Source: Utricularia gibba (taxonomy: Eukaryota > Streptophyta > Magnoliopsida > Lamiales > Lentibulariaceae). From it: a DNA stretch of 64,000 nt. Of this stretch, positions 28,306 through 62,981 are shown in pieces. Both the position numbers and the translations under genes were made by a program. Within the stretch, counting starts at the first letter, position 1, and each line of letters opens with the position of its first letter. The stretch covers positions 1,488,001 through 1,552,000 of the forward strand of contig NEEC01000011.1 in assembly GCA_002189035.1 (NCBI GenBank). Direction: 5' to 3'. The notes beneath the pieces were generated by a model, which had not been told where the DNA came from, ran no database searches, and worked only from the letters and a program-made list of their open reading frames with translations.

Positions 28306-28399
28306 AATAATCATTTTTTATTTATATTTTACACGAAAATTCAAATAAATAATATATTATATTTTTTTTAATATTATATTATAATCAATTGTTCAACAC

Positions 28400-28975
28400 A
28401 ATAATACATACGTGACATTAACATGTTTAGATTTTAGCATTAAAATTCTGTAAAAAGTTTGGTGTAACATTATATTAATTTATCTTTTTTTCAATTCAAA
28501 ATTAAAAAACGAATCAATAGTACAAATGTGATACTTACATGTTCAGAAATAGCATTAAAATTCTGAAAAAAGTTTGGTGTAACATTATATTAATTTATCT
28601 TTTTTCCAATTCAAAATTAAAAAACGAATTAATAGTACAAATGTGATACTGACATGTTCAGAAATAGCATTAAAATTCTGAAAAAAGTTTGGTATAATAA
28701 TAAATTAATTTGTTATTTTTTCAATTCAAAATTAAAAAACGAAACAATATTACACATGTGATACTGATATGTTCAGATTTTAACATTAAAATTCTGAAAA
28801 AGTTTGGTGTAATATTAAATTCATTTGTCTTTTTTCCAATTCAAAATTCAAAAATGAATCAATAGTACACATGTGATACTGACATGTTCAAATTTTAAAA
28901 TTAAAATTCTGAAAAAGTTTGGTGTAATATTAAATTCATTTGTCTTTTTTCCAATTCAAAATTCAAAAACGAAGT
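28400..28975 (+). repeat. Five 115-bp tandem repeats in the MULE 5' subterminal region
   Basis: The phrase AGTTTGGTGTAA, or a close variant, starts at 28456, 28571, 28686, 28801 and 28916, a spacing of exactly 115 bp each time. Each unit also contains ATGTTCAGA-like, TTAAAATTCTG and CAATTCAAAATT phrases. The last two units share substitutions and look most recently duplicated. The array ends about 60 bp before the transposase start. Subterminal repeats of this kind could bind transposase or carry the promoter. Confidence 0.92.
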
Positions 28976-40286: not shown

Positions 40287-41452
40287 CTAAGGTCCTTTCC
40301 TCTTTCTGCCCAAAGCAGAGCATATTTGGAGCCGGGGACCGCCCACCCGCCATTTCTTGAATGCGGCTATGGAGGATTGCCCAGCTTCGTACACTTCAAA
40401 ATGAAGAAGAACCACGTATGACAATCACAGAAGGGATAACTTACGAGGAATTGATATATAAACTCACATTCAGCTTCCTCATTTGTCAAAAGCTTCAAGA
40501 ACTTGGGAGTTACTGAAGGCGTTGTGGTGTGAGCCTTGGTCAACACCTCCCTGTACCTTGTACGGAATGCCACAAGAAGGAACGGTCCTACTGTTCTGTC
40601 ACCAACCCTGTCGATTAAAATATAACGAGACGAATTGAAGAATGACTTGGCAACTGTGTATTAACGAAGTCGAGGGTTCCTGATCTTACAATGGTGCCAT
40701 CTTACATCCTAAGCTGTAGAGGTAAGGGCATCTGCTTCTAAGATCCACATGGGCAGCGTCAGCAGCGATTTCCTCCCTTGTTTTCGATCTGGAAATTAAC
40801 AAGAATGAACCTTCATACTGATGAAGAAAAAAATTCCAAAACTGAATTTACTGAAGCAACTTTTAATAGAAATATTTCCTGCAGGATGAATATAAGCTGA
40901 TAATACATAAGAATGCTTGCAACCACTTCCCTTCCACGTGTATATATCATCGATTATAAACAAGAATAGTTGAAAATGCATAATCAATATTCAAAAGGCA
41001 AACAAAAAAACAGTCGAAAAAAGAAAATATACTCTTTGTCAAAGTATGGAGGAACCCTGATGGATACAAGTTGCCTTAGATATAACTCGCGTGCCAACCA
41101 GAAGGGCAGTTCTATTCTACAACCGGCTTCCACCTGGAAGTAAAGAAGTCACAAAAATGTGAGAGAAAAGAGCTTAAACAAGGATTACCCTGTTTTTTAT
41201 GCAGGCATGATCATGCCATGAGGCACCCCAAGTTATGGCAGAATACACAAAAAATAACCTTATTGGCCTCATCGCTTGTGTCAAATAGACCAACACCATG
41301 TGCAGAATGCTGGAACACTGACGGCACGCGCTGAAAAAATAAGAGCCACGCCATAGATTAAAAATCCCATAGCTTGAGGAAATTCAAGATGAACTTCAAT
41401 CTCATACCTCTTCTTCAACTAATATATCATCTATGTCGTAGTAGTTGGCCAT
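40287..41452 (-). CDS. PSF3: DNA replication complex GINS subunit PSF3
   Basis: Six exons, in transcription order 41452-41408, 41330-41259, 41133-41033, 40788-40690, 40607-40468 and 40393-40287, join with consistent phases and GT-AG introns to 187 residues. That is the usual length of plant PSF3. Landmarks are the start MANYYDIDDILVEEE, then GVGLFDTSDEANK, ELPFWLARELYLRQLVSI, VDLRSRCPYLYSLGCK, VGPFLLVAFRTRYREVLTKAH and the C-terminal WRVGGPR followed by a basic tail. PSF3 joins SLD5, PSF1 and PSF2 in the nuclear GINS complex, which with CDC45 and MCM2-7 forms the replicative helicase. No frame errors are seen. Its upstream region carries an MSA site and is duplicated upstream of the next gene. 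Confidence 0.95.
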
Positions 41453-41761
41453 ATCACAATCCTTAACATACAATTCTACTCCAGTGCAGGTTTATTTCTC
41501 GCCCAAGATAATTTAGCACCAAATCAACCTAAACTCGATATTTTCTTCACAGCTACGAAGGGCTACTCGGTGCAGCATCCGCCCCGCATATAGTAAGAAA
41601 TAGAATCAATAAAACTATCGACCTAAACTCGGGGCGGGGACAAATTCCATAGAAACTTAGATAGCTGCATTTCCAACTTCGCAGCTAGGGTTTTGTGCAT
41701 AGCCGATTTGCGAGTTGCTAAAAGAGGTTTTATCAGTAAGCTTGGGCTGTAAAAAGCCCAA

Positions 41762-42352
41762 CAATGATAAAACTCAAAATTTCAAGAAACGAAGCTAAAA
41801 ATCAATGAAACCCAGAAAAATAAGAAAGTTCCACCAAAAAGAGGAGCTTCAAGCCCTCCGACAACAACCAGCAAGAGAACCCTCTAATCCCATCAATAAC
41901 TTGGCATACCCAGAAGCTGGAATCTAATTTCTATGATTTTCCTCCCACAAAACAGTCAATTAAAAGGAATGAGAAAGTTCCAGCAGCAAGATGGAAGTTC
42001 CGGCCATCAAAACAGTCATCAACTACGTAGAAGTCATCACTTCCAGCGACAATAAGATAATTCCACAAAAAAAAGAACCCTTCCAATGCTTCTCCCATCC
42101 AAGAATTCCCACAACAATGAAGAAGATGATTGGTCGCAATACCTTCCGCAAATTCGGTGAAATGCAGTCAGATCACCCCACGAATCTCCAATACGGCGTC
42201 CACAAATCACAGAGTGAACCCTCCGAATCGATGGTAGAATTCCCTTGTCTCGAAAAATCGCACAAGTCCCCCCGCCCAACTGAGCAGAGTTCTTCCAAGG
42301 AAAAGCGGCCGGCCAATCAAACCTAACGGTCGTCAAAACACATTTGAATAAT
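41762..42352. repeat. Upstream duplication, copy 1 (PSF3 side)
   Basis: About 590 bp that align along their length with 46071-46588 in the same orientation, for example GAATCTAATTTCTATGATTT and AAGAAGATGATTGGT. Copy 1 carries extra sequence near 42006-42105. It begins 310 bp upstream of the PSF3 start codon, so it likely includes promoter and leader sequence. Confidence 0.9.
42322..42331 (+). promoter_or_regulatory. MSA-type site upstream of PSF3
   Basis: CCTAACGGTC fits the mitosis-specific activator consensus YCYAACGGYY bound by three-repeat MYB factors. It lies about 870 bp upstream of the PSF3 start codon, at the distal end of the duplicated segment. Function is inferred. Confidence 0.45.
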
Positions 42353-44116
42353 ACATTCGCCTCTCCCCTAAACCCCTCTTCATTCGGATAAACTTGCAAA
42401 ATACAAAGGAAAATAATTTCAATTTATAAAACAATTAAAAATTAAATGAATTTTGAAAACATGAGTTTCAGTATTCTCCTTCGCACCCAAAATTACTACA
42501 TGTTTGGTTTTCTGTTAAATATGAAGTTTATATATAATTATATACAAAATTCAGTTTATTTCAAAATATATCAATAAAGTATTTGTAATTTTACATAAAA
42601 ATATTTTAAAAAACTATTTAGATTGTTTTAGTTGTGAAAATTCCTTAGTAAATTTTTTAATGGGTTATTGGATATTATTTGTTGTATTCTTGTTATAAAA
42701 TATAAATTTAAATTTGGTGACCCAAATCACTAACAAATTTAAAGTACTACTCATACCAAAGAATAAAAATGCACTAAGAATTAATGGGAGTTTGGCTTAT
42801 GATGAAGAAGAAATTAAATGATTTTTAAGAAGAATAGTGGGATCAACTTAGAAATAGGACTTATGATAAAGCCAAAAAATTTGTAACAAAAGAGAAATCT
42901 CTAGTTTTAGATTGCCTCTCTTGTATGTCGAACATGGAAATTGTGACATAGAAAGCATAGATTAGCGTTGCATATTTGCTGAAAACAAAATAGGAATGAC
43001 TGATCAAATTACCATGATTATAGAAAATATTTGATAAATAAAAATTTTCATATCATTATGCAAATTATAAATCTTCATATCGAATAAAATTTAAAAACTC
43101 CATTCACATAAAAGGATATCTCAAACAAAAGTGTAGAACAGAATCAAAATCGAATAACTTGTGTTAGTAACATGCTAATGGGATGTAGAATCATAATTAA
43201 AAGTAATAATAATGTGTTGATGTAGTAAATAAAATTGAATAAACAGACATGAGATAATAAACATCGATAGCATACAAATAAAAACAATGATGTCTCAAGT
43301 TCATTTGGGTAATGTGTTAAAATAAATTCTTAATTATAATATATATTTTTACAACTTCACAACTTTGAATAATTTAGATATATTAAGGTAATTTTCTAGA
43401 TTTCAATTAGCAATACATTCGAGTTTTACTAACTATTCTATACTTAGTTCTAATATTTTGTAAAATATTCAGAACTAAATCTATATATTTCTAAAGATTT
43501 TTATCCGAAAATATTAACATATTCTATATATCTTTATTTTTTTAATTCTTACCATGCTACCAACACATACCTAAAGTATTTCAAATAGAATCTAAAAACC
43601 TTGTCATTTTTGTTTTGAAAATATACAATGTGTATATTATGGTTTTCTTGGTATTCAACAATACCAAAGTTGAAATTTCATTGCACATTTTACCATATTT
43701 TAACCATTATCATACCAATATATTCATCAATAATATGATAAATTTGTTCTATCCATAACGCCATGTTCATTTATCAAAAAAATGATGATCATTTATGACA
43801 CATTATATTCTAATAGCTTTTATTTTAAGAAAGAACCAGTACTGTCAGATATAAGTTTTCAAAAACTTTCTTTTAATGTGATTAAAACAGTTGAATTACA
43901 CTCAATTACACATGTTTAATGGCATCATAATATACAGCAAACAAATTTATAACTGTATTTTGAGCATTATTAAAAACAGGTAACATAAATTACCAATTTT
44001 CAAAAACAAAATCGCCAAGTGGTACCTATGAGATCAGCAAAGGGTTGCCCGCATTTCCTTCCCTCCTTTGGCTTCCAGGGTGATCTGCAGCTGTCCCTTG
44101 ATCAAACTTCACCTGG
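42353..44116. other. AT-rich intergenic DNA
   Basis: No gene or element recognised. It separates the PSF3 upstream region from the 3' end of the SUMO-like gene. Confidence 0.4.
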
Positions 44117-45719
44117 TCAGCTTGGCTTCAGATGCACTTCAATTATATCGTTTTCTTCCATCCCGAGACTGTCGGGAGTTGCTGTAGGACTAACTTTATC
44201 ACCATCAAACAGGAACACTAAAGCTTTTGCATCAACTTTGATCCTATCTGCATACATCCCGAAGAGCCGCTCAAATTTATCATCCTGTGAGCCACATTAT
44301 ATAGATGTCAACGACATGAGAACCAAGTTCTGAAAGTGGGACGCATTGTGAAGATCAGCAGCAGATTTCTTCAACTTTAAACAGCTCTATAGGAAGGCAG
44401 GTATATAGAATACATGATGCCCATTCTAGTTCAATCTATTAGTTTTGAGTCCTTGAAGAAGAAAAACAGGGGAATGTGTAAATGTGGAACCAGTCAGGCA
44501 TGTGAATACATGGCTATAGTTTCTGATAATGCTGTTGATACTTGAAAGGAGAATAAAATCACTAACCGTGAAAACTCGAAACTGCTTCACTCCTTCCTTA
44601 TCTTGGATAGAGATAACAATCTTTGGCCTTTCAGGGCAAGGAGCCTGTGTCTCCGCAGCAGCAGAGTTTGCAGAGGAGGACTGTTGTGAAGCATCCAGAT
44701 CTTTTCTGATGGATTCTTCGACAGCTCGCATAACATCTTCAGCAGACTCAGCAAAAGATTCCAACTCCTGCTTTTTTAACCTGGGAGCAAGTTTAAAGAA
44801 CAGTGATGGTATGAGACGAAAACTAATTTGACCATACGAGATAAAAAAGAATACATATAATTGCAAGCCACTATCTTTGAGATCAAATTCTGATGGACAA
44901 CTACATAACATCCTATATAGGCCCCTTTTAATCGGCTTCTATTATTGAAAAGAAAAAGGACATCCCAGACGCGCAGAGTCTGTTCAAGAGAATCAATGCT
45001 GCAGCTGCAACATGAAACACTAACTGATCACAACAACAAAAGCCACCACAGATGCACCAGAAACAATCACACGCATTAACTACACGACATATAGTGCAAG
45101 TTCTGACACTAGTGAGCCAACTATGAGCTGATGCTCTCCCTTATTCTCATACCTCAAGGCTTTCAATGTCGAGTCCACCTCAGCATTATGATTACTAACT
45201 TTATTAATCTTCGGCGGGGGAGGTAACCACTCCTCTTCATCATCAATAACCAGTATATCTTTCGCGTTGCTCTTTACATTCTCTCCATCTTTCGCTTGCT
45301 GTTCCTCCTATTATTCATCAACACGAAACTGGATCAATATGACATTCAAGAGCGTAAAGAACCACATGGGAAGAATTATAAAATAGAAATTAATACCGCA
45401 TCTTCAGAAAATTTCCTTTTTTTCTGTCCAAAAACAGTTGCGCCATCTGAACTATCATCTGCAAGTAATAAAATATAAGAAGTCCCACTTAAAAAAAAAA
45501 AAAACTAAAAAGAAACATTTACGCCCAAACCGACCATCAAGGCACACTACTTCTGAGGGCTGGATTCGGGAATAATCAAAAAGGGGTTCAAATTCATCGT
45601 CAGAATCCTCCTGAAGGAAAAAATAGCAATTTAAACTCCTAGAAATCAAATCCAGAAAGTAAAAGTCAGCCAACTTTCAGTACTACTTGCCATAATAAGT
45701 TATCCCATAAACATACCAT
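44117..45719 (-). CDS. SUMO-like-domain protein of the Rad60/Esc2/NIP45 type
   Basis: Exons, in transcription order, are 45719-45717, 45610-45523, 45458-45397, 45307-45153, 44780-44567 and 44284-44117, giving 229 residues with all phases agreeing. The start codon is the last three bases of exon 1, and the protein continues EDSDDEFEPLFDY from exon 2. After a basic QKKRK stretch and an acidic VIDDEEEWLPPPP motif comes a helical EDVMRAVEESIRKDL segment. The C-terminal ubiquitin-like fold (about residues 156-229) reads KIVISIQDKEG, then FERLFGMYADR and LFDGDKVSPTATPDSLGMEE, ending EVHLKPS. The end lacks the GG of conjugatable SUMO, as in Rad60-type SUMO-like domains, which bind the SUMO E2 and act in genome stability. 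I believe Arabidopsis has a similar small protein. The exact ortholog is not settled. Confidence 0.87.
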
Positions 45720-46394
45720 GGATGATTGCCGCCTGATTTTTTCTTTAATGTGCACTCTCGAACGCAAAAAAACAAGATGCGACCCTGCATGGTACACCCA
45801 GTTCTGGGGTCAGACGGGTAACTGATGCAGGCAGTGTCTAATATACTCATAATCTCACAAAATAATAATTAGCTTTTCACCCAAATGCGGATCTGATATC
45901 AAGGTCTAACCAAAAGTTCAGAGGTCAAATGTGAGTGACTATTCATTCACTACAAGCATTCCAACAACGTTCATCAACGGTACTAAATTCCAAGGAAATG
46001 AACTCAAGTTCAGAGACATTCCCACAGAAAGAGTTCACAAAAGCCAACTTGAATAATAAACCTTCATCAGCAATGATAAAACTCAAAATTTCCAGCACCA
46101 AAGCTAAAAATTAATGAAATCCAGAAAACTATGAAAACTCAATCAATAAGAGGAGCTTCAATCCCTCCAAGAGCAACCAGCAAGAGAAACCTCAAATCCC
46201 ATCAATAAGTTGGGATATCCAGAAGCAGGAATCTAATTTCTATGATTTTCCTCCCACAAAACAGTCGATTAAAAGGAATGGGAATGTTCCAGCAGCAAGA
46301 TGCAAGTTCCGGACATCAAAGAATTCCTAGAACATTGAAGAAGATGATTGGTACGCGGAATACCTTCCGAAAATTCGTCGAAATGCAGTCAGAT

Positions 46395-46409
46395 CCCCCC
46401 CCCCCCCCC
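46395..46409. repeat. C15 homopolymer
   Basis: Fifteen consecutive C residues inside duplication copy 2. Copy 1 has only a short ATCACCCCA at the equivalent place, so the run grew after the duplication or is inflated in the assembly. Confidence 0.95.
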
Positions 46410-46557
46410 GGGAATCTCCTCCGAAAATCACAGAGAGAATGCTCTGATCGATGGTAGAAGAGAAGCCGTAGCCTTCGTTCCCTTGTCTCGAAAAATTGCA
46501 CAAGTCCCCCGCCGAACTCCGAGCAGGGTTCTTAGGAAAAGCGGCCGGTCAACCAAA

Positions 46558-46568
46558 CCTAACGGTTA
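46558..46568 (+). promoter_or_regulatory. MSA-type site upstream of the SUMO-like gene
   Basis: CCTAACGGTTA fits the full YCYAACGGYYA consensus. It is the duplicate of the site at 42322 and lies about 840 bp upstream of the start codon. Confidence 0.45.
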
Positions 46569-46588
46569 TCAAACACATTTGAATAACA

Positions 46589-47494: not shown

Positions 47495-47800
47495 TGTTGA
47501 AAGTTCCTTTGAGATCCCTAAGTTGAAGCCAGTCGATGAAAGTGAAGATTATGCGAAGATGTGGCTTCTATGTTGATAGGAAGAAAAAGAAGGAACAAAT
47601 CTTCAATGACTAAAAGAAAATGTTGCTATTTTGTTTTTGCTGTCACATGTTCATCATGTGAATGTGTTGTATTTAAACAAAGAATCTTAAACATGAAATT
47701 ATGGTATTTTCCTCTGTTTTTCAATGATGTTCTTTTCTTCTTGAACCTTAGTTTTTTGACTTCTTCTCTTATCTAAAGCTTCTATTTGCAATGATTCACA
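47495..47800 (+). repeat. 5' LTR (306 bp)
   Basis: TG...CA ends. It aligns with 52153-52476 through phrases such as GTTTTTTGACTT and TATTTAAA. Confidence 0.9.
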
Positions 47801-47803
47801 GCA

Positions 47804-47815
47804 TGGTATCAGAGC
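47804..47815 (+). other. Primer-binding site complementary to initiator tRNA-Met
   Basis: TGGTATCAGAGC, the standard plant copia PBS, lies 3 bp inside the 5' LTR end. Confidence 0.92.
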
Positions 47816-48096
47816 AACATGACTCTCATCACATGTGAACCTGAAAAGTATTTTGTTGAACTTGCACTATAAATACATCTCAGTTGGTTGTAAATACATG
47901 ACTTTTGATTTTTGCCAGAGTCAAGTATGCTTAATGAATACTCAAGATTACTCCTTACCTCAAACTGAAATGTTTGTAGTTTGTAGTGACACTCCCAAAC
48001 AAATATAGGGCACATTGTAGGAAATATATGGGGGAGGAGACAAGATGAAGAAATATAAGCAATACAATTTAATGGAAGAGTTTTGAACAAAATGAA

Positions 48097-48357
48097 ATGG
48101 AATACTATGAGACTTTCAAACAACATTATGACAAAACCTACAAACTTGTGAATGACATCAAAACTCTGGGAGAATACCTACCAGACTCCAAAGTTATTGA
48201 AAAAGTCATGATGAACTCACTAGAGAGGTTCAAAGAAAAATTCCTTGTCATTGAACTAGAAGAAAAAATGAGAAAAATCACAGGTCATGAAGAAGAGATG
48301 AGCTTCTTTGAATTCATCAGAGAACTCCAATCTTATGAAAAATATATGCAAATCTAA
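48097..48357 (+). pseudogene. copia gag remnant
   Basis: The 86-codon open stretch has the plant copia gag pattern YYDKTYKLVNDIKTLGEYL, then KVIEKVMMNSLERF and LQSYEKYMQ. It lacks the start of gag and the downstream zinc knuckle, so only a fragment is open. Confidence 0.75.
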
Positions 48358-48639
48358 AAGAAATGCAGCATTACTGCACAATCAAAGTTGGTACTATTTT
48401 TAAGGGGATCATCAAGTTCAAATTTAAATAGAAAACCCACTGCTGATGCTTCATTACTACGGATGAAAGAGAAATATCCATTTGTAACAAAAACAATCAT
48501 ACCAATAAAAAATGTTAGATAAAGAATATTAGCTTATGTATATACTTTTCTAAGCTATTTCATAAGCCCGAATCTTGTTGATACCACATAAATGCTACCT
48601 ACACATATTACAAAACTAAATGTCACATTGAAAAAGTGT

Positions 48640-51600
48640 GTCCTACAATGGAGAAAACAGAAATAGATGACACTCATTCAAATGCGAAAAACTGGCAAGA
48701 AGAACATGTTGCTAGTTTCACCTACTTTGAAAAAAAAAAGAAATTTTTATCCTTGATGCTTGTGATGTTAGATTTACCCTTATGTCGAGTCAACAGTACA
48801 AAATCAAGGTTGACATGTAGACAATGGTGCAACAAGCCACATATGCACCAACATAAATTACTTCACATCTCTGTCAAAAGTTACTATTGGACAATTATAC
48901 GAATCAATTGGACATTCTATAATAATATTGGGAAAGAGCACACTTTGTCTACCTATAGAAAAAAACTTCATGATAATACATGATGTATGCTATGCTCCAG
49001 AAGTTGTTCAAAATCTCGTAAGTTTTGGATAATTATACACTCAAAACTTCAAGTTATCTCTTTAGAAAGAGAGCATAGAAATCTTTAATCTAGATTCTTC
49101 ACTCTCACATATTAATGTTCGTTTGAACAACAATCTATATAAACTCCAAATTGGCATTGAAAAAGCAATGACACTTGTAGTCTCTAAAAAATCTGCCTTA
49201 TGCAATAATTGACTAAGCCATTATAGTATCAACAATCTTAAAATTATAAAGAAAGAAGAAACCATTGATGAATTGAAAGGCATAAAATTCTCATGATTCT
49301 AATGTCATACTTGTTTAAAAGGAAAGACTACAAGACAATTATATTTGTCTAACGACTCTACCAATTATAGAAAACTTGAAATTGTTCGCTTAGATCCATA
49401 TAACCTCTTCAAAGAAGTTTTCCTCAGCGGCATTAAGTATTTCCTTATTTTTATTGACGACTTTACTATATATTGTTGCGTCTATTTCATGAAATCAAAA
49501 TAAAAAACCCTTACTATATTCAAAAACTTTAAACATGTGGTAAAAAAATAAAGTAATAGCAAGTTGAAGATATTGCGGTCAAATAATGTAGCTGAATATA
49601 TGTCATCTACCTTCAAGTCTTCTTTCCAAGAAGAAGAAAAACCAAATGATTTGAGATATAACAAAATGCTTACTTTTTAAAGAAGAACCTTCTTTGACAT
49701 TTTAAATAGAAGCAACTTCTATTGCTATGTACTTACTATATCTATTATCCTCGAGAGTCATTAATGACAGCTCTTCTTATAAATTGTGGACAGGTCGAAA
49801 GGTGAAGATTAGACATCTTAGGACTTTTGGACCAATCTGCTTTGTTCACGTTCATAAGTAAAGAAGATCAAAATTAACTTAAAAAACACAAATATGCATT
49901 TTTGTTAGCTATAGTCTAGTAATAAAATGTTACATAGTGTATTTATCTGCTACATAATTTACAACCATCAGTAGCGACATAACTTTCAATAAGTCTAAAA
50001 ACTATACCTTGATTGACGGAACACTTGTGATGATAGGTCAATTTCCGTTATAAGGAAAAGAAGTTGGGAGTATAGATACATCACCTATATCTAATCTCAC
50101 TCTTGGTGTAGTGCTGCTTTTGGTAAATTTCAGACACCTTAGTGTATGAAGTTCACAAAACTATTAGCCCCTTGTTGACGAACATTCCTTTACATCTAAA
50201 AATGACCATTTGGGTGATGGATTCAAAACTGAAATTATGGGCAAGACTCTTGGTCTCGTTCTTCAAGTATTGGAAAATTATTGACTGACATCTTTGATGA
50301 TTCCCCACGTACATTGGATCACAACTATCTAACAATACTTACTTCTAATGACACTGATTACTATAATCAAACACTTAAAATAAGAAAGAGAAAACCTTTG
50401 TCAAATAAACTCAGTAACACTTGGGTTTCCAGATCCACAACAATTGGGAACTCCTCTTTAGAAGATGAATTTTCAACTTCCAACATAGAGTAATTATCCT
50501 ATCAAGTTGTTTGTGACCCAATTAGTTATACCGAAGACTTCAAAGATAAGGAATGAGTAAAGTCAATGGAAAGAGAAATGAACTCAATAGAAAAAAATGA
50601 CACATGAGAGGTGTTAGACAAACCAAAAAATATGTCAGTACTAGTGATTGACACCATGTGGCTGTACAAACCAAGTTCAATTTGAATGGTACAATAAACA
50701 AGAAAAAAACTAAATTAGTAGCAAAGGGATACTCTCAAATTAACGGCTCAAACTACTGTGAAGTATTTGTCTCTATAACTCGATTGTAGACAATATAGCT
50801 ACTTCTAGCTATTGTAGCAAATTATAATTAGGAGGTACATCATATAAATGTCAAAACATCTTTCTTATGGTATTCTATCGAAGGAAATTTATTGCAAACA
50901 ATATAAAATGTTTGTGTCATCTGGAAATGAAGGGAAAGTCATGAAACTTAAGATAACCATGCATGGATTAAAACACGCTCTCAATGGGTTGAAGAATCAA
51001 GTCAACTACTTCTTTGAATCTATACAAAACCTATTTTGTATCTCAAAAATTCAAAAAAAGGAAAACCTTTGATAGGTATCCACATCGATGGTCTTTTAAT
51101 TAACTCAAACAATGAGCATATGATACTAGACTTTATAGGAAAAATGGAAGAAGAATTCCAAATGACAGATCTTGGCCTCATGTGGTATTATTTGTGTTTG
51201 AAGATACATCAAACACCTAAAGTTGGTATATTACTAAATCAAAGAAAATATGTCTTAGAATTGATAAAGAAATTTGGAATGTAAGATGCTAATCCCTACA
51301 AAATATTTATGGATACAAAACAAATTTTCAAGGAAAATAAAAAGTGAAGATTGATGTGATGTAGTAACATATCGTAGTTTGATTGGAAACTGAATATACT
51401 TGTCTCTCACCAAAGAGCTATTGTGTGAATGTCCTATCCAAATATCTAATACTACCAAAATCCAATCATCTTTTGTGTAGAAAAAGATTACTACGATATG
51501 TAAAAGAAACATCAGACTTTGGAATATTCTTTACTTATTTTATGTAAAAGAAACATCAGACTTTGGAATATTCTTTACTTATTTTATGTAAAAGAAACAT

Positions 51601-52104
51601 CAAATTTTGGAATATTCTTTACTTATTTTAAAAATGCATACCTTGTTATAAGTATATATGCAAATAGTGATTGTGTAGTAAGTGAAGATGTCAAGAGCAT
51701 TTCTGCCTTCATTACTTTTCTGAACAATAGTCCATTTTTGTGGTGTACAAAAAAACAATCAGTTGCGGCTCAATATGTTGCAGAAGCCGAATACATATCA
51801 ACCTCACAAGGTTCAAAACATTGTGTATGGCTAAAACAAATTCTCAAAGACATAGGATTCAGTTATATTATGGCAACATCACTCTATATTGACAACCAAT
51901 TTGCAATCCTAATGGTAAGAAGAATACGTGTCAATTTAGTAGGGCAAAACACATTCAGGTGAAAGATCACTCTCTCCGATATGCAATGAAAACACAAAAA
52001 ATTGAACTGAGGTATGTTCAATCAAAGGAGCAATTGGCAGATATACTAACCAAATCTCTGGGAAAGATAAACTTTCATAGGCTTCGATTGAAAATTGGAG
52101 TGTA
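48640..52104 (+). pseudogene. copia protease-integrase-RT-RNase H remnant
   Basis: In order: a decayed protease region (48640-49000), then SHYSINNLKIIKKEE and CHTCLKGK, which are the pre-integrase zinc motif. FLIFIDDFTIYC is the integrase core near 49440. RT follows from about 50600, with KLVAKGYSQINGSNYCEVF and a degraded HIDGLLINSN box in place of YVDDLLI. RNase H (51640-52104) shows KKQSVAAQYVAEAEYIS and YVQSKEQLADILTKSLG. Stops occur throughout. Confidence 0.85.
51501..51632 (+). repeat. Three 44-bp tandem copies inside the copia element
   Basis: TAAAAGAAACATCAGACTTT and its continuation start at 51501, 51545 and 51589. The unit is not a multiple of three, so it adds frameshifts at the RT/RNase H border. 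The third copy has diverged slightly. Confidence 0.92.
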
Positions 52105-52152: not shown

Positions 52153-52476
52153 TGTTGAAGGTCAATTTGAGGTCCTTAAGTTAAAGTCAGTTAATAAGAA
52201 TGGGGATTAGGCAAAGATGCGGCTTATGTGTTAGTAGAAAGGGAAATGCATGATAAGAAGAAGAAGTAACGCATCTTCAACGTCGAAAATAAAATGTTGG
52301 TACTTTGTTTTTGTTGTCATGAATTCATCACATGAAATAACTGTATTTAAATAGAAAATCATAAACATGAGATCATGATGTTTTTTACTTTGTTTTATAA
52401 TGATGTTTTTTTATTCTTAAATATTAGTTTTTTGACTTATTCTCTTATCCAAATCTTCTATTTGTAGTGATTCACA
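52153..52476 (+). repeat. 3' LTR (324 bp)
   Basis: Partner of 47495-47800. TG...CA ends, visibly diverged. Confidence 0.9.
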
Positions 52477-60844: not shown

Positions 60845-61577
60845 ATGATGTTGTACAATATACATCTGCTACATTGTCTTGATCATCATAAGCAATGCAT
60901 GTATTACTTGGGATGTTTCAGACAATTACTATGTTGGATTTCTGTGAAGCCTTGCCTTGGAACATGAACTGGAAAGAAGCTTTTGTATATGCCACTCAGG
61001 TTCTTCAGGAAAGTATATTAGCAATCTTGGAGTCCTACACTAGTTATGCTCAGGATGGACACATTTCAGTCTCCATGGTTTTCTCCAGTTAGCAATCTGC
61101 CCCTGGTTCCAACCAATCGATGTGAAGCTGCTATTATTACATTTCGTAGTCTTGATTCAGCACTGTTTGGCAACTACTCCTTATAGAATGTGAATAGAGA
61201 GTGAATGTCTAGTCGCGAACTACCCCTTCTATTGTGTAAACAGAGAGCCAATATGCAGCATGAATTATGTATCGATATAGTTCCTCAGAATCTCATGCTC
61301 CACTTGAAAATGCATTTCTGTCAAGTTTCCTGATGTGTCTTTGTTGACATTATCTTTCATTATATTGCGTTTGTACACTCTTCTTAAAATGTCTCAGGAA
61401 AGCTGTACGTTGCCTACAAGATCAAGCTGTGGATCAGTATATGGTTACGTCTGGGAGTGCGTCTTCCGAATCATCTCCTGAAGTTATTAAACTTAAGGTA
61501 AGAGTTATGATCCATTTGTTAGAAAAATACTACACCTGCTGGAACACCCGCTGACAACAAGAAATAAGATTCAGCAT
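60845..61577. other. Convergent 3' flanks, with exon-like segments
   Basis: Between a plus-strand and a minus-strand gene, so mostly 3' UTRs. A plus-strand segment near 61397-61497 (KAVRCLQDQAVDQYMV and on) is bounded by AG and GTAAG and looks exon-like. No start, family or partner exon could be assigned. Confidence 0.35.
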
Positions 61578-62981
61578 CTATCTAGCTTTTCTTTTCTTTG
61601 CTGCGCATTTGCATATAGGGCATGAATTCTTCTTCAGGAGCCACTGCTTTATGCATTCAACATGATGATGGTGTCTGCATTCCAATATTGCCACCTCATC
61701 ATCTTGTGCGTATTTTTCCTGCGTTAATCCAGTCACATATCACTATTACATCCGTGAAGGGTATGTATGTCCGGTGTTAAAACAGTCTTATTCTAACCGC
61801 AGAGAAAGAGTCAAACTTCACCTGGCAGATGCTGCATTTCCGATCTCTTTGTCCATCATTCAAAGACATTGAAGCAGCAAGATCATTATCAGGATCCTTG
61901 ACGATCATCAAGCACCCAGGTATCTCTTTTTCTTCAAGTCCAGTTCCCACATATCCGATCTTATCACCCAAATTAAGCAGCTCCTGACATGCCCAATAAA
62001 AATGAGTTATTTATGAATCTGAGTTCAACTCACTTGATCCATTGCTCCAGCTGCCAACCTCGTAAGACATTTCTTCCACATCCAGTCTCAAGTCCTGGTC
62101 GGGATCCTCCACCCGCCCCCTGACATTTACAAATCAAGCAACCATTGATCAGAAAGTATATACTAACTACGTGCCTTCTTAGGATTTCGAGATTTTGAGA
62201 ACCAAAACCTTGTGAAAGGACTAGGATTTTGTGTCTCCGCAACCCCGAACCACAAATCATCCATATTCCATAGATGGTCATAACATAATCCCCTTCCGGT
62301 TAGTAGAGTTTGCGGGGCGTCATCATCTGCCAAACTTGATGTTAAATGATGCATTGCTTTTACAGATCTCAGGTACCAGAGAGTTAGAAGATTATATTAC
62401 GTGTCAAACCTCACTTACCTCCTCTTCAGAGTGAGAATCAATCCCAAAAGATGATGATCGAGAGCCAGTCCCATTTCCTCTAGCCAGCTGCAGCGGGACC
62501 AGTTGACTAAAAAATAGTGGTTTTTGCAGATGAAACAGGGAAAATGCAGTTCCAATTACCTTCACCCGATCGATTCTTGGAGCTGGGTTTCTGCTTATAG
62601 TTGAAAAATCTGAAGAAATTCGGATTCCTGGTGAGGCACAGCTCGAGTGAGGTATATCAATCGCAGCAGTTCTTTCTCCCTTCCTCGTCGTCTTCCTCCT
62701 TCGTCCCCCATTTACCTTCTCTTTAGTTCCCCACTCCGCGGCCGACCGGATAATCGCCGGCGCCGACGGGGGATGGAGGAGATGCTCTTGCAACTCATTC
62801 CTTCTTTCAGCTTGAGGAACCACAATCTCTTGTTCTCACTGCGGCTATGAAACTTTGATCCCTCGTGTTTTGAGGAGATCCACAAGTGACCCATCCTGCA
62901 ATTTATTTCATGGGATGTTCTTCTTCGGGGTCTGTTATGCTCATCATCATCAGCAGTAGCAGCAGCAGCAGCTCGAGGCAT
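61578..62981 (-). CDS. RING-H2 E3 ubiquitin ligase (MBR-like), N-terminus uncertain
   Basis: Secure exons, in transcription order, are 62560 and upstream, 62487-62419, 62367-62209, 62119-62059, 61983-61822 and 61718-61578. The C-terminal half is unmistakable. NMDDLWFGVAETQNPSPFTR, DLRLDVEEMSYEELLNLGDK and IGYVGTGLEE are conserved blocks of plant MBR-type ligases. The RING-H2 follows, CSICQEKYAQDDEVAILEC, then HHHHVECIKQW and CPIC. It recruits an E2 enzyme to ubiquitinate targets, probably in nucleus or cytosol. Two frame problems remain. Exon 62487-62419 and exon 62367-62209 meet with one surplus base, perhaps in the AAAA run near 62360. A likely start ATG at 62981 (MPRAAAAATADDD) is out of frame with the next block near 62826-62845. 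The gene model upstream of 62560 is therefore provisional. Confidence 0.85.

Follow-up and report, generated by a model that had tools for sequence, protein, structure and literature searches.

Several described systems resemble parts of the locus treated here. The closest are promoter shuffling and 5' exon shuffling, with which it shares the arrangement of upstream DNA, a putative non-coding exon and the start of a putative leader intron placed in the same orientation at unrelated coding regions. It differs from them in that three nuclear genes are involved, without a transferred organelle gene, and in that one copy bears an internal intron of another gene. A literature search for shared leader or promoter duplications found no direct precedent in the library searched, which is not evidence of novelty; the front-end duplication is real and low-copy, and its only novelty is as one more case of a known kind.

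Control elements offer further comparisons. The MSA element is a G2/M motif and marks G2/M genes (PMC9730800). The consensus of this target of MYB3R factors, YCYAACGGYY, occurs in two of the copies, one of which also fits the 11-mer. However, the site is single, was not independently retained, stands beside a gene for replication, not for mitosis, and is missing from the third copy. PSF3 resembles telo-box plus site II promoters (PMC3022908) in that two site II motifs and a telo box stand no more than 310 bp from its ATG, but these elements lie outside the repeated segment or at its edge, and no such association is seen at the SUMO-like gene. Plant RENi (Rad60-Esc2-NIP45) proteins are 210-240 aa long, with a polar, low-complexity N-terminus and one C-terminal SUMO-like domain (PMC549199), and those such as At1g68185 are matched in size and in the single C-terminal domain by the 225-aa protein encoded here.

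The duplicated segment and its neighbouring genes

The window analysed is a 64-kb stretch of plant DNA from Utricularia gibba (C255:1488001-1552000, C255 being contig NEEC01000011.1), and unprefixed positions refer to it. It contains two genes, each preceded by one copy of the repeated segment, or module:

40287-41452, minus strand: coding exons of PSF3, a GINS subunit (Pfam PSF3_N, Sld5; exon matches)
41759-42351, minus strand: module copy upstream of PSF3, comprising upstream sequence, a putative exon 1 without coding sequence, and the beginning of a putative leader intron (alignment to 46068-46586; low copy genome-wide)
44117-45719, minus strand: RENi-type SUMO-like gene, 225 aa, with a single C-terminal Rad60-SLD (Pfam; exon matches; sequence)
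46068-46586, minus strand: module copy upstream of the Rad60-SLD (RENi-type) gene (alignment), without the ~85-90 nt segment of the PSF3 copy that is partly common to the SufD copy

In a local alignment on the same strand, the two copies are identical in 436 of 487 aligned columns (89.5%), with 138 gap columns. The observed duplication agrees with the earlier note, which had placed direct duplicates at 41762-42352 and 46071-46588, with ends correct within 3 nt. It is not a chance resemblance, because each segment is the other's sole near full-length match in a genome search (E 1e-87). The biggest gap is the piece of ~85-90 nt present in the PSF3 copy and missing from the SUMO-like copy; conversely, the latter has an 18-nt insert absent from the former. 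The 10.5% divergence, about 0.11 substitutions per site after correction, rules out an assembly artefact as the source of the two copies and would date their duplication to roughly 8 million years ago if the rate is taken as 7e-9 per site per year. A coding exon within the module is rejected, as the indels between the copies are not multiples of three and there is no common ATG-led frame.

The identities that the earlier note had given to the genes are borne out by Pfam. The PSF3 protein, assembled by hand from its exons, contains both GINS PSF3 domains (PSF3_N 1.6e-14; Sld5 1.3e-10), and the hand-assembled SUMO-like protein of 225 aa has a Rad60-SLD at residues 152-221 (5e-11), consistent with the proposed Rad60-type protein. 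The coding regions flanking the copies are thus unrelated (PSF3_N and Sld5 versus Rad60-SLD), also as proposed. GINS, including PSF3, acts in replication initiation. The ATG positions read from the sequence are 41452 for PSF3 and 45719 for the SUMO-like gene; the module lies upstream of both, at 307-899 bp from the former and 349-867 bp from the latter, matching the approximate 310-900 bp upstream of both minus-strand start codons suggested before. The first coding exon of the SUMO-like gene ends with its ATG, which alone makes up the coding part of that exon.

The window also contains other repeats. Five 115-bp units stand in tandem at 28399-28973 (90% matches), and three 44-bp units (97%) at 51497-51630, where a Copia-like open frame begins; retroelement traces similar to this frame occur near 47600-48500 and 52255-52476.

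A third copy, a common donor-like site and a shared intron

A SufD gene on the minus strand, 416 kb from the window pair (Pfam: SufBD_N 6.3e-11 and SufBD core domains), carries an older, partial third copy in its 5' leader. This copy is ~22% diverged in alignable blocks, and it shares with the PSF3 copy part of the ~85-90 nt segment missing from the SUMO-like copy. Unrelated coding regions, with PSF3, Rad60-SLD and SufBD domains, therefore carry homologous 5' DNA in the same orientation. Read in gene sense, the sequence AAGGTATT, which contains the donor-like AAG/GTATT (slash at the putative splice position), is invariant in all three nuclear copies. The features concerned within the window are:

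42138-42145, minus strand: donor-like AAG/GTATTG of the PSF3 copy, first intron base about 42142, in the invariant AAGGTATT; best donor of the copy, at the 98th percentile of window GTs by an approximate matrix
46359-46366, minus strand: donor-like AAG/GTATTC of the SUMO-like copy, first intron base about 46363; T rises from 29% to 41% across the site
45308-45396, minus strand: intron 3 of the SUMO-like gene, homologous over nearly its whole length to a block in the SufD leader (84 nt, 77%; unique pair genome-wide)

The matrix used for donor scoring is approximate, and its percentiles are rough. By this measure, no site in the PSF3 stretch ranks above the donor-like one in AAGGTATT, and in the SUMO-like stretch the coding-intron donor alone does so; in the SufD stretch, two other GT sites score slightly above it. 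A change in composition is also observed at the site: T content is 32, 29 and 27% upstream and 42, 41 and 42% downstream in the PSF3, SUMO-like and SufD copies, respectively, and introns checked in these genes are 40-46% T, like the downstream sequence. Together, the invariant donor-like site and the T step resemble the junction between a non-coding first exon and a leader intron. In SufD, this putative intron can be followed further, as a classic acceptor, TTTCATAATGCAG/GGG, stands 46 nt before the ATG; on this ground, a 455-nt intron in the 5' leader of the gene is probable.

The oddest part of the locus, and the one most worth a second look, is the homology between intron 3 of the SUMO-like gene and the SufD leader, which runs almost exactly from splice site to splice site. 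The sharing is observed directly: leader block L028:4504-4587 (84 nt) matches 45315-45397 at 77%, with an alignment score of 74, compared with 33 at most for 1000 simulated (shuffled) sequences, and a pattern made from the intron-3 block matches at these two places only, genome-wide. Between the exons flanking intron 3 and the surroundings of the SufD block, no homology was found (p about 0.3-0.4). An intronic snoRNA as the cause of the shared introns is rejected, as Rfam returned nothing above gathering scores and only chance-level matches. An intron may have moved between genes that also share the leader module, being gained by copying of leader-intron DNA or inserted into the SufD leader; we consider this rather unlikely. 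If true, the moved intron would be an addition to a shared captured 5' end of the SUMO-like and SufD genes.

Candidate control elements upstream of PSF3 and the SUMO-like gene

The candidate control elements in and beside the module are:

41686-41693, minus strand: telo box AAACCCTA between the module and the PSF3 ATG, about 235-240 bp from the ATG
41743-41760, strand not assigned: inverted site II pair TGGGCT..AGCCCA, straddling the gene-proximal edge of the PSF3 module
42322-42332, plus strand: MSA-like CCTAACGGTCG of the PSF3 copy, which fits the 10-mer and misses the 11-mer YCYAACGGYYA by its last base
46558-46568, plus strand: MSA-like CCTAACGGTTA of the SUMO-like copy, which fits the 11-mer YCYAACGGYYA

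The earlier note had described a match to YCYAACGGYY(A) in both copies. This holds for the 10-mer; the 11-mer is found in the SUMO-like copy only. Within the 64-kb window, YCYAACGGYY occurs twice, at 42322 and 46558, on the plus strand in both cases and once per copy, and each gene thus has one MSA consensus upstream of it, inside the module. The chance of such a match in one module is about 0.6%, and the core is kept with its CCAAT/GC context in both copies and in a mitochondrial fragment of the module (see below). On these grounds, a shared promoter module with an MSA element could give PSF3 and the SUMO-like gene common cell-cycle control. However, because the segments are duplicates, the two sites amount to one observation. 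Identity is uniform along the module, at 90.7% for the promoter and exon part and 89.1% for the intron part, without extra constraint at the MSA-like site, and the single AACGG core is absent from the SufD copy, which lacks that part of the module. Moreover, a G2/M motif (PMC9730800) is ill-suited to a subunit acting in replication initiation, the strict E2F site TTTSSCGC is found nowhere in the 64-kb window, and PSF3 possesses separate telo-box and site II elements outside the module. We therefore regard common control by the module as quite improbable. The proposal that one module drives two genome-maintenance genes through the cell cycle finds no support in these observations, and co-regulation of PSF3 and the SUMO-like gene is possible but unsupported.

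The position of the PSF3 elements bears on where the gene starts. Telo boxes of translation-related genes cluster mostly at -50 to +50 of the transcription start site (PMC3022908). Because the telo box and site II pair of PSF3 lie between the module and the ATG, its main transcription start may fall outside the module. The earlier note took starts outside the duplicate at both genes to speak against its proposal; at PSF3, one of the two, this may be the case.

Origin of the copies

Copy counts refer to the window's own 100-Mb assembly, which contains N stretches, and all are lower bounds drawn from the best candidates reported. A DNA search of this assembly found two full copies and a third, diverged one, located at about C255:1950665-1950842; a 64-nt piece was also found, at C515 and C402. 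With 3 mismatches allowed, a donor block pattern has 3 matches genome-wide, a promoter block pattern 4 (two nuclear copies, the mitochondrial C515 and the numt C402) and a distal intron block pattern 2, each with 0 matches in its reversed control. All of the nuclear copies observed (n = 3) lie upstream of an ATG and in the same orientation relative to their own gene.

The 64-nt piece corresponds to 42282-42345, on the promoter side of the module. It occurs at C515:234070-234132, including a match to the MSA 11-mer, and is 89% identical to the PSF3 copy and 82% to the SUMO-like copy. Contig C515 is mitochondrial, as it bears COX1 in two stop-free pieces. The piece is found again at C402:1629069-1629131, in a nuclear copy (~1.65 kb) of that mitochondrial DNA. 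The piece may have passed from nucleus to mitochondrion or in the reverse direction.

The best explanation of the repeated segment, which we hold to be fairly likely, is that it is a copied gene front end, in which proximal upstream DNA is followed by a first exon without coding sequence and by the beginning of an intron in the 5' leader, and that it came most probably from the SUMO-like gene and was copied to PSF3 and SufD. The SUMO-like gene is the likeliest source because it alone has two blocks in common with SufD as well as one in common with PSF3, although the direction of copying is a prediction. The front end would most likely have been part of this RENi/At1g68185-type gene originally; local DNA duplication would have added a copy, by now diverged by 10.5%, upstream of PSF3, which neighbours it on the same strand, and the SufD leader 416 kb away would hold an older, partly deleted copy. 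Transcription of the SUMO-like and SufD genes is predicted to start in or just before the module, and the AAG/GTATT donor to be spliced to a gene-specific acceptor ahead of the ATG. At PSF3, where the gene's own telo-box/site II promoter would stand between the copy and the ATG, the copy is predicted to affect expression at most as an extra upstream start or enhancer.

Several observations count against this account. The PSF3 and SufD copies share part of the ~85-90 nt segment, and a later deletion in the SUMO-like copy must be assumed, which may have occurred at a CATCA/CATCC microhomology. The direction of copying is further blurred by the 18-nt insert of the SUMO-like copy, missing from the PSF3 copy. 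In SufD, other GT sites equal or beat the shared donor by the approximate matrix, and the SufD homology to intron 3 ends at the intron borders, which plain copying and random deletion would not predict. For further copies and for the ancestral state, the evidence comes from one plant assembly, the window's own (100 Mb, with N stretches).

The copy at PSF3 might instead be neutral duplication debris, without effect on PSF3 transcription and kept merely because it is young, as its uniform divergence, multiple indels and lack of a conserved island would allow, together with the other PSF3 promoter elements nearer the ATG. We judge this unlikely, given that all three copies, the old one included, have retained the donor-like site and the step in composition, although this has no bearing on PSF3 alone. 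The earlier note's alternative of a transposable element inserted twice, here taken as the repeated insertion of a MITE, SINE or Helitron fragment near genes, appears very improbable. Three dispersed nuclear copies, every one near a gene, and a fragment in mitochondrial DNA might suggest such an element; however, the low counts in DNA searches and pattern scans make it unlikely, with just three nuclear copies in 100 Mb (a lower bound) despite sensitive patterns. The many further genomic copies by which the earlier note would have recognised a transposon were not found in the search of the 100-Mb assembly, nor was a transposon-like family with many dispersed copies; the module is represented by two full copies and one old partial copy. 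The ends of the copies have no terminal inverted repeats, and their flanks show, by eye, no clean target-site duplication (a common TTGAATAA does not bound the homology), features that are not required in every transposable element class. Moreover, orientation to the gene is constant, a donor-like splice site is common to the copies, and the SufD copy takes in a gene intron.

A whole-genome-duplication origin of the copies is rejected, as the homeologous C328 segment is without the module and without the SUMO-like gene. This segment, L029 (C328:2054500-2060500), holds a decayed relic of the last PSF3 exons, with stops inside, and, ~100 bp away, a RING-type gene whose identity to 61409-62928 of the window is 77%; in the window, PSF3 and the RING-type gene are 20 kb apart.

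At present, the locus gives no support for co-regulation of two genome-maintenance genes. If transcripts confirm the copied front end, it would be a compact, datable case of the front end of one gene copied to two unrelated genes, one of them adjoining, and would provide a natural test of the spread of promoters and leader introns.
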